Shown here: piece after piece, positions 28,345 to 32,407 of the stretch | Layout: each line of letters starts with the position of its first letter | Position numbering within the stretch: the stretch's first letter is position 1 | From: Streptomyces umbrinus | GTDB lineage: Bacteria > Actinomycetota > Actinomycetes > Streptomycetales > Streptomycetaceae | DNA length: 64,000 nt | Direction of reading: 5' to 3' | NCBI RefSeq assembly: GCF_030817415.1 | Contig: NZ_JAUSZI010000002.1 | Location: forward strand, 9,486,001-9,550,000 | The notes under the pieces: generated by a model | Databases searched by the model: none | Seen by the model: only the letters and a program-made list of their open reading frames with translations | Told to the model about the DNA's origin: nothing | Translations under genes and position numbers: made by a program

Positions 28345-28581
28345 ATGTCTCATTCGCTTCAACAGACCCGCTGGAACCGTCGGATCGGGGTGTGGGAGCC
28401 TGGCGCAGAAGGTTCTTCGTGTCGCAGAATGCCCGTGCCGCAGGTCACAGCGCTTCCGAGAGGCGAGACAGTAGCCCGGCGGCAGAGCGCGACCGATAAA
28501 CTGTTCTCGGACGACGCCGGGCGCAGCCCCCGGGCGTCCGCCAATGATCAGCCAGCAGCCGCTGCAACCTCAGGGAGCGTT

Positions 28582-29790
28582 GTGTCCCGTCGCCTGTTCA
28601 CCTCGGAGTCTGTGACCGAGGGTCACCCCGACAAGATCGCTGACCAGATCAGTGACACCATTCTCGACGCGCTTCTGCGTGAGGACCCGCATTCCCGGGT
28701 CGCCGTGGAGACGCTGATCACCACCGGCCTGGTGCACGTGGCCGGAGAGGTCACCACCAAGGCGTACGCGCCGATCGCGCAGCTCGTGCGCGACAAGATC
28801 CTCGAGATCGGCTACGACTCCTCGAAGAAGGGCTTCGACGGCGCTTCCTGCGGCGTTTCGGTGTCCATCGGATCCCAGTCGCCCGACATCGCGCAGGGCG
28901 TCGACACGGCGTACGAGAAGCGGGTCGAGGGTGACGAGGACGAGCTCGACAAGCAGGGTGCGGGCGACCAGGGCCTGATGTTCGGCTACGCGACGGACGA
29001 GACGCCGGCCCTGATGCCGCTCCCGATCCACCTCGCGCACCGCCTGTCGCGCCGCCTCTCCGAGGTCCGCAAGAACGGGACGATCCCGTACCTGCGCCCG
29101 GACGGCAAGACCCAGGTCACCATCGAGTACGACGGCGACAAGGCGGTCCGCCTGGACACGGTCGTCGTCTCCTCGCAGCACGCGTCGGACATCGACCTGG
29201 ACTCGCTCCTGGCCCCCGACATCCGCGAGTTCGTGGTCGAGCCGGAGCTGAAGGCCCTCCTCGACGACGGCATCAAGCTGGAGACCGAGGGCTACCGCCT
29301 GCTGGTCAACCCGACCGGCCGCTTCGAGATCGGCGGCCCGATGGGCGACGCCGGCCTCACGGGCCGCAAGATCATCATCGACACCTACGGCGGCATGGCC
29401 CGCCACGGTGGCGGCGCCTTCTCGGGCAAGGACCCGTCCAAGGTCGACCGCTCCGCCGCGTACGCCATGCGCTGGGTCGCCAAGAACGTCGTCGCCGCGG
29501 GCCTCGCCACCCGCTGCGAGGTCCAGGTCGCCTACGCGATCGGCAAGGCCGAGCCCGTCGGCCTCTTCGTCGAGACCTTCGGCACCGCCAAGGTCGACGC
29601 CGAGAAGATCGAGACGGCCATCACCGAGGTCTTCGACCTCCGCCCGGCCGCGATCATCCGCGACCTGGACCTGCTCCGCCCGATCTACGCCCAGACCGCC
29701 GCGTACGGCCACTTCGGCCGTGAGCTGCCCGAGTTCACCTGGGAGAAGACGGACCGGGTGGACGCGCTGCGGAAGGCTGCGGGGCTGTAG
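28582..29790 (+). CDS. metK: S-adenosylmethionine synthetase
   Basis: This 402-residue protein makes SAM from methionine and ATP. The start is GTG 28582 (AGGGAG upstream), giving [20 protein letters not shown], the standard N-terminus; an in-frame upstream reading back to 28345 has no conserved content. [12 protein letters not shown] and [20 protein letters not shown] are the family signatures. The 237-bp leader between coaBC and metK holds a GATAAACT -10-like element near 28495 and small hairpins, but I could not match it to a known SAM riboswitch. A very strong terminator follows. Confidence 0.98.
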
Positions 29791-29817
29791 GTCCTGCTGT
29801 TTTTCGGCCAGCTGTTT

Positions 29818-29859
29818 CGGCGAGGCCCGGCACCCCCTCAGGGGCGCCGGGCCTCGCCG
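29818..29859 (+). terminator. Very strong hairpin after metK
   Basis: CGGCGAGGCCCGGC (29818-29831) and GCCGGGCCTCGCCG (29846-29859) are perfect complements, and the loop itself holds CCCC/GGGG pairs. It lies 28 bp after the metK stop and should isolate metK from the tRNA-like region and priA. Confidence 0.9.
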
Positions 29860-30070
29860 TTGTCCGCCCGTCGGATTCCGCGGGCAGACGGAGGGGCCGA
29901 CAAATGGTTGGCACGGCTGTCGTCGGACTTCGTACGCTGGCGGTCCTCCCGGTGCGCAGGTCGCGGTTACTTCGGTGGAGTGCGTCGAGTGCGTGCGGTG
30001 AATCTGGTTCATGTACCGCTGCCGTTCTGAACTCGGGAGGAGCTGACGTCGTCGCGCCCGGTGCGATGGT

Positions 30071-30170
30071 TGCGGATACTTCCGGGTTGTCCCCTCGCAG
30101 GTTCGAATCCTGCTGCCGGTCCTGGACCGGTATGGCCGAGTGGCCCATGGCAGAAGCGCCCCAGGGGCGT
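30071..30170 (+). ncRNA. Circularly permuted tRNA-like element in the metK-priA intergenic region
   Basis: The tRNA parts occur in the order 3' half then 5' half. ACTTC 30078-30082 (anticodon-stem 3' side), then variable arm GGG-TTGT-CCC 30084-30093, T-arm GCAGG-TTCGAAT-CCTGC 30097-30113, acceptor strand TGCCGGT 30114-30120, linker CCTGG, acceptor strand ACCGGTA 30126-30132 (7 pairs, one G-U), TG as bases 8-9, D-arm GCC-GAGTGGCCCAT-GGC 30135-30151, then GAAGC 30153-30157, which pairs with ACTTC at 4 of 5. Invariant bases U8, A14, G18, G19, A21, T54, T55, C56 and A58 are all present. The long variable arm resembles Ser/Leu tRNAs. No CCA is encoded. The rest of 29860-30238 shows no gene; priA begins 69 bases later. 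Confidence 0.6.
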
Positions 30171-30238
30171 TCGCGATCCGCGGCCGGCCTGATCTCGGGC
30201 GCGCGGCGGTGTCAGTGGGGTCTGGTAGGAATGTTGCT

Positions 30239-32407
30239 GTGAGCAGCACGGATGGGCGTGGTGAAGGTGGGGCCGAGGGTGCCCCGCCCGAGCAGCTTGC
30301 GTTGATTCGGGACGCCGTGCGGAAGGCGCCGCGGGCCAAGCCGCGGACCTGGCGGGGGGCCGCCGTCGCCAAGGAGCTGCCCGTGGCGCGGGTGCTCGTC
30401 GACAAGGGCGTGCTGCATCTCGACCGGTACTTCGACTATGCCGTGCCCGAGGAGCTCGACGCCGACGCGCAGCCGGGGGTGCGGGTGCGGGTGCGGTTCG
30501 GGGCCGGGCGGCATCGCGTGCGGGAGGGGCGGCGCGAGGGCGGGGGACTGATCGACGGGTTCCTGATCGAGCGGCTGGCCGAGTCCGACTACTCCGGGCC
30601 GCTGGCCGCGCTCGCTCAAGTCGTGTCGCCCGAGCCCGTGTTGAGCGAGGAGTTGCTGGGGCTCGCCCGGGCCGTCGCCGATCGGTACGCGGGGAGTCTG
30701 GCCGATGTGCTCCAGCTGGCCGTGCCCCCGCGCAACGCCAGAGCCGAGCAGAAGCCGTCGCCCGAGCCGTTGCCGGTTCCCGAGGCGCCGGGGGTGGGGT
30801 CCTGGGCCCGGTACTCGCGGGGGGCCGCCTTCGTCGAGTCGCTCGCGGGCGGCGGGGCGCCCCGGGCCGTGTGGAACGCGCTGCCGGGGCCAGGCTGGGC
30901 CGAGGAGTTGGCGCGGGCCGTGGGGGCGACGCTCGCCTCGGGCCGTGGAGCGCTCGTCGTCGTGCCGGACGGGCGGGCCGTCAGCCGGGTCGACGCCGCG
31001 CTGACCTCCGTGCTGGGCGAGGGGCGGCACGCCGTGCTCACCGCCGAGGCCGGACCCGAGAAGCGGTACCGGCAGTGGCTCGCGGTGCGGCGAGGGTCCG
31101 TACGGGCCGTCGTGGGCACCAGGGCCGCCATGTTCGCGCCTGTGCAGGATCTGGGGCTTGTCGCCATGTGGGACGACGGGGACGGCAGCCACAGCGAGCT
31201 GCACGCCCCCCAGCCGCATGCGCGGGAGGTGCTGTTGCTGCGGGCCGCGCACGACAAGTGCGCGTTCCTGCTGGGAAGTTGGAGCTGCACCGTCGAGGCC
31301 GCGCAGCTCGTGGAGAGCGGCTGGGCGGCTCCGATCGTCGCCGAGCGGGAGCAGGTGCGGGGGGCGGCTCCGCTCGTACGGACCGTGGGGGACGGGGATC
31401 TCGCGCGCGACGAGGCGGCGCGGGCCGCACGGCTGCCCACCCTCGCCTGGCAGGTCGTACGGGAAGGGCTGAAGCAGGGGCCGGTGCTGGTGCAGGTGCC
31501 GCGGCGTGGCTATGTGCCGCGGATGGCCTGTGCGCAGTGCCGGGCGGCCGCTCGCTGTCGGCACTGCGCCGGGCCGTTGGAGGGGCAGGACGCCGGCGGG
31601 CTGCGCTGCGGGTGGTGCGGTCGGGACGAGCCGGAGTGGCGCTGTCCCGAGTGCGGTGGGTTCCGGCTGCGGGCCCAGGTCGTGGGGGCGCGGCGGACCG
31701 CCGAGGAGCTCGGGCGGGCCTTTCCGGCGGTCCCTGTGCGGACGTCGGGGCGCGAGCAGATCCTGGACACCGTGCCGGGGGCACCCGCGCTGGTCGTCAG
31801 CACGCCGGGTGCTGAGCCCGTGGCCGAGGGCGGGTACGCGGCCGCGCTGCTGCTCGACGGCTGGGCGATGCTGGGGCGGCCCGATCTGCGGGCCGGCGAG
31901 GACGCGTTGCGGCGGTGGATCGGTGCGGCGGCGCTGGTGCGGGGGCAGCGGGACGGCGGGACCGTGGTGGTCGTCGCCGAGCCGACGCTGCGGCCGGTGC
32001 AGGCGCTGGTGCGGTGGGATCCGGTCGGGCACGCGGTCCGTGAGCTGGCCGAGCGGGCTGAGCTCGGTTTCCCGCCCGTGTCGCGGATGGCCGCCGTGTC
32101 CGGGACGGCGGAGGCACTCGCCGGGTTCCTCGCCGCGGTCGAACTGCCGCGTGAGGCCGAGGTGTTGGGGCCCGTGCCGGTGCCTCCGGCGGATCCCGGG
32201 CGGCCGCGGCGGACGGGGGCGCCACCCGTGGGCGAGCCGTGGGAGCGGGCGCTGATCAGGGTGCCGCCGGGGAAGGGGGCCGCGCTGGCCTCCGCTTTGA
32301 AGAACGCTCAGGCGGCTCGGATGGCTCGTGGGGGGAGCGGGGGCAGCGGTGGCGGCGGGGGGAGTGACGCGGTGCGGATTCGGGTTGATCCGCCGGACAT
32401 TGGGTGA
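30239..32407 (+). CDS. priA: Primosomal protein N' PriA, helicase motifs degenerate
   Basis: This is a 722-residue replication-restart protein. GTG 30239 follows TAGGA and is preferred; the frame is open back to 30140, through the tRNA-like element. The N-terminal 3'-DNA-binding domain (VARVLVDKGVLHLDRYFDYA) is normal, and the zinc-binding region has its eight Cys in pairs (CAQCRAAARCRHC ... CGWC ... CPEC). The helicase core is altered: the Walker A position reads ALPGPGWAEEL without GKT, and the DEEH box reads MWDDGDGSH. Actinobacterial PriA is generally held to lack helicase activity, so it probably acts as a loading platform. Confidence 0.93.
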   Translation: MSSTDGRGEGGAEGAPPEQLALIRDAVRKAPRAKPRTWRGAAVAKELPVARVLVDKGVLHLDRYFDYAVPEELDADAQPGVRVRVRFGAGRHRVREGRREGGGLIDGFLIERLAESDYSGPLAALAQVVSPEPVLSEELLGLARAVADRYAGSLADVLQLAVPPRNARAEQKPSPEPLPVPEAPGVGSWARYSRGAAFVESLAGGGAPRAVWNALPGPGWAEELARAVGATLASGRGALVVVPDGRAVSRVDAALTSVLGEGRHAVLTAEAGPEKRYRQWLAVRRGSVRAVVGTRAAMFAPVQDLGLVAMWDDGDGSHSELHAPQPHAREVLLLRAAHDKCAFLLGSWSCTVEAAQLVESGWAAPIVAEREQVRGAAPLVRTVGDGDLARDEAARAARLPTLAWQVVREGLKQGPVLVQVPRRGYVPRMACAQCRAAARCRHCAGPLEGQDAGGLRCGWCGRDEPEWRCPECGGFRLRAQVVGARRTAEELGRAFPAVPVRTSGREQILDTVPGAPALVVSTPGAEPVAEGGYAAALLLDGWAMLGRPDLRAGEDALRRWIGAAALVRGQRDGGTVVVVAEPTLRPVQALVRWDPVGHAVRELAERAELGFPPVSRMAAVSGTAEALAGFLAAVELPREAEVLGPVPVPPADPGRPRRTGAPPVGEPWERALIRVPPGKGAALASALKNAQAARMARGGSGGSGGGGGSDAVRIRVDPPDIG

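Follow-up and report, generated by a model that had tools for sequence, protein, structure and literature searches.

Introduction

Bacterial Ro60 partners Y RNAs that combine a protein-binding stem with a tRNA-like domain, the latter made up of acceptor, D- and T-arms; the Y RNA of Deinococcus tethers Ro60 to PNPase (PMC8394870, PMC7790460). One such RNA, YrlA, is a partner of the TROVE/Ro60 protein (PMC8394870), and Hughes et al. raised the idea that a tRNA-like domain of this kind might competitively inhibit an anticodon nuclease (PMC7790460). Mimicry of tRNA by bacterial Y RNAs is already established. In the literature searched, no paper joined Y RNA, Ro60 and Streptomyces; one mentions the TROVE domain and Streptomyces together, with TROVE discussed for mycobacteria.

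Here we analyse a 64-kb stretch of the Streptomyces umbrinus genome (the window), in which the intergenic region between metK and priA holds two related RNA units, referred to as A and B. Taken together, matches of an independent stem model to both units and the co-occurrence of the RNA family with TROVE across genomes make it most likely that 29944-30204 holds two Y RNA genes, side by side, that belong to the bacterial Ro60 system and are unlinked to the Ro60 gene, a reading to which we give a probability of roughly 0.87. Expression, Ro60 binding and function of the two units are inferred.

Results

The metK-priA intergenic region

The first-pass annotation had placed a circularly permuted tRNA-like element at 30071..30170. 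The location was correct and the length too short: the element runs from 30053 to 30204, and a related unit precedes it at 29944-30042. The features of the region are as follows.

28582..29790, + strand: metK (S-adenosylmethionine synthetase), upstream neighbour, with Pfam S-AdoMet_synt N, M and C domains
29820..29858, + strand: metK terminator-like hairpin (GCGAGGCCCGGC..GCCGGGCCTCGC), read off the sequence
29933..29938, + strand: TACGCT, a -10-like box 5' of unit A, putative promoter element
29944..30042, + strand: unit A, Y RNA-type, without a tRNA-like part (model R2, 51.2 bits, E 7.4e-10)
30053..30204, + strand: unit B, Y RNA-type with a permuted tRNA-like module (R2, 31.1 bits, E 4.9e-5; R1 family)
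30210..30232, + strand: TGTCAGTG-N8-TAGGAAT, a promoter-like element of priA lying 3' of unit B and just 5' of the priA start codon
30239..32407, + strand: priA, GTG start at 30239, downstream neighbour, with Pfam PriA_3primeBD

Hairpins like that at 29820..29858 also lie 3' of metK in the metK-priA gaps of relatives that were inspected; the hairpin itself was absent from the output of a terminator scan. The TAnnnT pattern occurs within 20 bases upstream of unit A in 14 of the 15 loci examined, and a sigma-70 consensus scan found no promoter. Units A and B share a 26-nt direct repeat that is 85% identical. At gathering scores the sole Rfam match was the Streptomyces-metK RNA (RF03063, 120 bits) at 28463-28577, upstream of metK, with none in the metK-priA region, and ARAGORN called no tRNA anywhere in the window. 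Pfam detected only the 3' DNA-binding domain in PriA (30239-32407) and not the helicase domain.

Of 42 loci, 40 have the pattern TGTCAG-N8-GGTA just 5' of the priA start, whether or not they carry the RNA element; the two that miss it (L023 and L054) do have priA. The element at 30210-30232 may resemble the RecA-independent DNA-damage promoter motif (PafBC, the mycobacterial RecA-NDp); if this likeness is right, priA would be damage-inducible in Streptomyces.

Structure and covariation of unit B

Unit B mounts its tRNA-like part on a two-part stem, P1/P2. The tRNA-like part begins with the variable arm and the T-arm, continues with the 3' and then the 5' strand of the acceptor, and ends with the D-arm.

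30053..30060, + strand: P1 5' strand, outer stem, pairing with 30196-30203
30061..30067, + strand: internal loop GTGCGAT, 5' side, facing 30186-30195
30068..30077, + strand: P2 5' strand, inner stem, pairing with 30176-30185
30084..30093, + strand: class II-like variable arm, stem 30084-30086/30091-30093
30097..30113, + strand: T-arm (GCAGG/CCTGC, 7-nt loop), from covariation
30114..30132, + strand: acceptor hairpin of 3' strand, 5-nt loop CCTGG and 5' strand (30114-30120 with 30126-30132)
30133..30152, + strand: D-arm TGGCCGAGTGGCCCATGGCA, D-stem 30135-30137/30149-30151
30157..30169, + strand: tail hairpin 3' of the D-arm, at the position of the anticodon arm, from the covariation alignment
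30176..30185, + strand: P2 3' strand, from the covariation alignment
30196..30203, + strand: P1 3' strand, immediately 3' of GATCT, from the covariation alignment

All the parts of a class II tRNA that had been named at the outset are present in permuted order, including the perfect T-arm, the acceptor stem of seven pairs, the variable arm and the D-arm, the numbering of D-arm bases as A14, G18 and G19 being the analyst's reading. Unit B lacks an anticodon loop, and its acceptor end is not free, being closed by the 5-nt loop. This joining loop has 5 nt in 14 of 24 relatives and 6-10 nt in the other 10.

An alignment of 24 homologous units (A4; 25 were extracted and L059 omitted) was used to assess the helices. 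Standard pairs fill 90.8% of its helix cells; with the partner strand shifted 1-3 columns out of register the share falls to 38-51%. Double-sided changes occur in 16 of 41 pairs (10.3 in shuffles) and in 65 cells (27.6 in shuffles), and for neither count was any of 500 shuffles as high; the number of further pair types, 38, does not stand out from that in shuffles (35.3; 59 of 500 shuffles reach 38). The earlier judgement that so many matches exceed chance is borne out by these figures, and the compensatory changes in the 24 units show selection on the structure.

Individual helices differ in how well they are kept among the 24 units. Every cell of the T-arm is paired (100%), with double changes in 2 of 5 pairs; the acceptor hairpin follows (97.6%; 4 of 7 pairs), then the D-arm (97.2%), P1 (89.1%; 3 of 8 pairs) and the variable arm (86.1%; 2 of 3 pairs). 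P2 is paired in 83.7% of cells with double changes in 3 of 10 pairs, 6 of the 24 rows being misaligned or gapped there, and the tail hairpin in 83.1% of cells where present, 7-14 of the 24 rows being gapped. The check for compensatory changes across Streptomyces that the first-pass annotation had proposed thus came out in its favour for the T-arm, acceptor and variable arm, and the tRNA parts are kept in the 24 relatives. Its suggested anticodon stem, GAAGC with ACTTC, fared otherwise: the pairing had seemed better in the first eight sequences only, and across the alignment it stands at 71.7% paired against 71.9% in shuffles with no double-sided change.

The motif GGTGCG is invariant in the 24 units of A4 and in the 14 of a second alignment (A5), although the unit finder itself demanded it. 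The internal loop at 30061..30067 is the probable region of Ro60 contact. When 30051-30205 was folded alone, RNAfold recovered P1 and P2, the variable and T-arms and both the acceptor and the tail hairpin; the D-arm region paired in a different register. The stability of this fold has a z of only -1.96, with 8 of 200 shuffles folding equally well. The RNAalifold consensus contains P1, the variable arm, T-arm and acceptor, lacks P2 and again places the D-arm in another register. Compared with the D-arms of this genome's tRNAs, that of unit B scores a similarity of 11, the best of 300 shuffles reaching 10. It is closest to Cys tRNA and only then to Ser and Tyr, so "Ser-like" is a loose label for it.

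An independent stem model and Ro60

For covariance model R2 we used 14 tRNA-less units (A5) of Ro60-type arrays, 13 of which have a Ro60 gene in the fetched flank and one of which (L080) does not; no metK-priA sequence entered it. Its two best matches in the 64-kb window are unit A and unit B, the next having E 0.063. Across the 12.4-Mb genome at E<=1 it returned two matches only, the Ro60 locus and unit A, and did not recover unit B. Among 23 further unit-B loci, R2 at E<=0.01 matched unit A in 13, the whole of unit B in 10 and a part of unit B in one. As the tRNA part plays no role in this model, its matches on units A and B mean that their stem is homologous to that of Ro60-linked RNAs. The case for this is strong with unit A; with unit B taken by itself it is moderate. 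The paired ends form a stem with the internal loop of Ro60-adjacent RNAs, and this stem would bind Ro60. The permuted module of T-arm, acceptor hairpin and D-arm is present in unit B and lacking in unit A. As a side observation, the 26 bases at 30178-30203 (P2 and P1 3' strands) have 96-100% matches elsewhere in several genomes; R2 found no match on locus L029, the one such copy that was fetched.

The Rfam YrlA model (RF02553) scored 20.9 bits at 30069-30180 of the window against a cut-off of 69, and 42.5 bits (E 1.2e-6) on L072, a locus that adjoins Ro60 and has the same permuted order as the window. The gathering score of 69 was reached neither in the window nor in two tested sets of eight and four loci, Ro60-adjacent ones included (best 42.5). 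R1 matches at other places have in common the scaffold GGTGCG..GG / GATCTCGGG, built around a permuted tRNA-like module. Eighty of the loci studied were hand-picked from the R1 matches listed rather than sampled at random. In 17 of the 50 loci L031-L080 the unit has a Ro60-related gene next to it on the downstream side; the product at L061 has a TROVE domain (E 4.2e-13). Ro60 loci often carry a row of three units, the middle one without a tRNA part.

Distribution and co-occurrence with Ro60

Searched at the DNA level, 8 of 199 Streptomyces genomes, S. umbrinus included, contained a match to most of the query. Model R1, a covariance model from eight copies of the tRNA-like element, gave matches at E<=0.01 in 180 of 392 Streptomyces genomes and in 68 of 121 Streptomycetaceae genomes (9 of 17 genera); its searches over more than 40 genomes used stricter filters, with weak matches lost. 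At 68 bits or more there are 24 matches, each in a separate genome among the 392; their fetched flanks include priA in 23 cases and metK in 22. Inspection of 26 metK-priA gaps found unit B in 7 and absent from 19, locus L009 having unit A alone. Unit A is missing from 10 of the 24 loci that have unit B (the window and 23 further loci). Separately, L008 (G049, minus strand, ~1620-1717) shows a tandem duplication, at a 49-base spacing, of the 5' portion of unit B. In the metK-priA place of L054 (G204), a Leu-like D-arm TGGCGGAAC stands instead, so tRNA style can change at one locus.

TROVE was found in 190 of the 392 genomes. R1 and TROVE/Ro60 occur together in 161, R1 only in 19, TROVE only in 29 and neither in 183 (Fisher p 3e-56), counts that ignore the relatedness of genomes and whose agreement comes mostly from Ro60-linked copies. 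Among genomes with a unit of at least 68 bits, TROVE is present in 21 of 24, against 169 of 368 others (p 7e-5). The three without it are G159 and G333, which carry Ro60 fragments, and G316, in which none was detectable. When 11 of the 19 R1-only genomes were probed with a Ro60 protein, five showed partial or interrupted Ro60 and six nothing. Partial or interrupted Ro60 genes alongside Y RNA-type units were seen in G159, G333, G302, G125 and G346 (L090-L096), which suggests recent loss of the protein preceding that of the RNAs. In G243, a three-unit Ro60-type array (L080, G243:C1:5817641-5821749) has no Ro60 gene in its fetched flank, and the same genome also has a unit beside Ro60 (L057).

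Model searches placed Y RNA-type units at three places in the S. umbrinus genome (contig coordinates).

8846572, 8846723 and 8846814: matches to the units of the Ro60 locus
9515944 and 9516057: matches to the units of the window
9719996: an Asp-like unit

The sole Ro60 match in this genome is at 8847006-8848586, ~669 kb from the window element. The window units are therefore not encoded beside Ro60, while co-occurrence at the genome level is strong. Known bacterial Y RNAs have generally been found by their adjacency to Ro60, which is not a property of the RNA.

Diversity of the tRNA mimics

Units were parsed by requiring at least 4 T-stem and 5 acceptor pairs, tRNA loci L097-L146 being excluded; this gave 167 units, or 160 without duplicates. 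By D-arm, class I-like units are the largest group among the 160 distinct tRNA-type units (65), followed by Leu-like (37), Ser-like (33) and Asp-like (24) units and one other. In five units tested for D-arm similarity to this genome's tRNAs, none of 300 shuffles equalled any. The Asp-like D-arm scored 10 against a best shuffle of 9.5, a narrow margin like that of the window unit, and the Leu-like D-arm is nearest to tRNA-Leu(GAG).

A complete anticodon arm, for which U33, C32 and A38 were required, was found in 62 of 160 units, and the anticodon varies. The loops include CTCATAA (14), CTGATAA (11), CTGTCAA (9), CTCTCAA (9), CTCTTAA (4), CTGTTAA (3) and others. With the U33 filter alone there are 70 arms, of which 63 have C32, 60 have A37 and 64 have A38. 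First units of Ro60 arrays (L061 1759-1857, L075 1758-1862 and similar) have loops CTNNTAA, in which the anticodons include CAU, GAU, CUU and GUU; their U36-A37-A38 would be compatible with t6A modification.

The cyclic order of tRNA arms appears to be kept, with the circle seemingly opened at differing points around the anticodon arm. The opening would lie between D-arm and anticodon arm in Asp-like and part of the class I-like units, within the anticodon arm in Leu-like units (L061 CCAAGT/ACTTGG, L063 CCAGTT/AACTGG, L069 CCTGA/TCAGG), and between anticodon and variable arm in Ser-like units, where the tail hairpin would take the anticodon position. A permissive 5-base search for a split anticodon stem was positive in 35 of 37 Leu-like units, but was not specific, being positive too in Ser-like (20 of 33), class I-like (40 of 65) and Asp-like units (8 of 24). 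ARAGORN called a tRNA in 62 of the 62 anticodon-arm units when de-permuted and in 0 of 62 in natural order; it also called 62 of 62 when the D-arm of the de-permuted units was shuffled, and the test is thus uninformative on the D-arm.

Seven loci (L062 2001-2101, at G000:C2:9719996-9720096, L064, L065, L070, L071, L076 and L077) hold solitary Asp/Glu-like units of Y RNA type, with a complete anticodon arm 5' of the T-arm and no Ro60 gene within the fetched 2-kb flanks. R2 matches five of them (L062, L064, L065, L070 and L071) and not L076 or L077. With more flank, ARAGORN called three of the seven in natural order as tRNA-Asp (L064, L065 and L071), and on these calls some solitary Asp-like units may be misannotated as tRNAs.

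Discussion

A working scheme for the two probable Y RNA genes can be proposed, the likeliest mechanism being a Ro60-bound RNA that recruits a tRNA-binding protein through its tRNA-like end. Unit A would be a Ro60-binding stem alone, and unit B that stem with a tRNA-like module added, in which a tRNA circle opened beside the anticodon position would be joined to the inner stem P2. Ro60 would bind the stem of P1, internal loop and P2, and the module would act as a handle for a tRNA-binding partner. This might be PNPase, as the Deinococcus case suggests, or else an enzyme that modifies or cleaves tRNA. More speculatively, the whole anticodon arms in Streptomyces would suit inhibition of an anticodon nuclease. 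Tentatively, the Streptomyces repertoire may be one in which a single Ro60-binding stem shows class II Ser/Tyr-like, Leu-like and class I-like mimics and complete permuted tRNAs with drifting anticodons (CAU, GAU, CUU, GUU; GUC, CUC), Ro60 serving as a multi-adaptor for separate tRNA-binding enzymes or the RNAs serving as decoys for anticodon nucleases.

Four origins had been offered for the element in the first-pass annotation, and a tRNA-mimic RNA is the one that fits; a permuted tRNA gene, a priA leader and fused tandem tRNAs were not upheld. The alternative that survives best, itself improbable, is that of a decaying copy, a once functional Y RNA now kept by chance as an orphan between metK and priA. 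It draws on the minority distribution (of the 392 Streptomyces genomes, 24 have a unit that reaches 68 bits), on persistence in three genomes without an intact Ro60 gene and on the 10 of 24 unit-B loci without unit A, but has to contend with the compensatory changes in the 24 units, the -10-like box 5' of unit A in 14 of 15 loci, and TROVE in 21 of 24 genomes.

A cis-acting leader or sensor of tRNA state for priA, or a 3' element of metK, is a good deal less probable than decay. Synteny speaks for it, with priA in the flank of 23 and metK in that of 22 of the 24 units; however, promoter-like sequence lies between the element and priA, 19 of 26 gaps do without the element, and the same RNA type precedes Ro60 genes and occurs at other loci.

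Slightly lower still, at the edge of what we would credit, is a functional circularly permuted tRNA gene whose transcript would be cut and rejoined into a mature class II tRNA. Such genes are known in algae and archaea (PMC3978253, PMC3218864), and the T-, D- and acceptor parts are intact in permuted order, yet unit B has no anticodon loop, its candidate GAAGC/ACTTC stem does not covary, and a 5-nt loop joins the acceptor strands. Ser, Leu and Tyr tRNAs are already in the genome, and the covarying P1/P2 stem, which is common to RNAs without a tRNA part, would be left unexplained. Fusion of two tandem tRNAs was rejected, as it cannot account for the covarying stem of the whole unit or for the same layout at Ro60 loci.

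Comparison with known systems

Two-piece (permuted) tmRNA resembles unit B in having a tRNA-like domain in permuted order. The tmRNA covariance model found no match in 29780-30300 of the window at E<=10, and among relatives gave two weak partial matches, with 17.7 bits at L072 and 13.4 bits at L061 against a cut-off of 47. Algal and archaeal permuted tRNA genes likewise place the 3' half before the 5' half; their precursors are processed and re-ligated to a working tRNA (PMC3978253), whereas unit B has neither anticodon loop nor free acceptor end.

The likeness to YrlA (RF02553) goes further, as in its Rfam consensus the ends pair as a stem and the module runs T-arm, acceptor hairpin, D-arm. 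Unit B differs from YrlA in scoring far under the Rfam threshold, in possessing a tail hairpin and a variable arm of class II type, in its distance of ~669 kb from the genome's only detected Ro60 gene and in being preceded by a tRNA-less unit. The Ro60-adjacent arrays (L061, L072 and L075) share with the window the scaffold GGTGCG..GG / GATCTCGGG, the permuted layout and a tRNA-less middle unit resembling unit A; they differ in their Met/Ile/Lys-like units with a whole anticodon arm, their Leu-like and class I-like units, and in having three units rather than two.

Among the titles and abstract openings listed, none concerned Y RNAs that lie apart from Ro60 or that mimic diverse isotypes. In the papers searched, neither a class II mimic unlinked to Ro60 nor the present diversity was found, and prior mention is possible. 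The distance from the Ro60 gene and the several tRNA types mimicked within Streptomyces look new. A known, little-studied system would account for the oddity of a permuted tRNA between metK and priA. These units suggest that Y RNAs need not adjoin Ro60, and searches of Ro60 neighbourhoods would miss such copies. With several tRNA mimics on one stem, and multiple mimics per genome, what the tRNA-like part of a Y RNA recognises becomes a testable matter.
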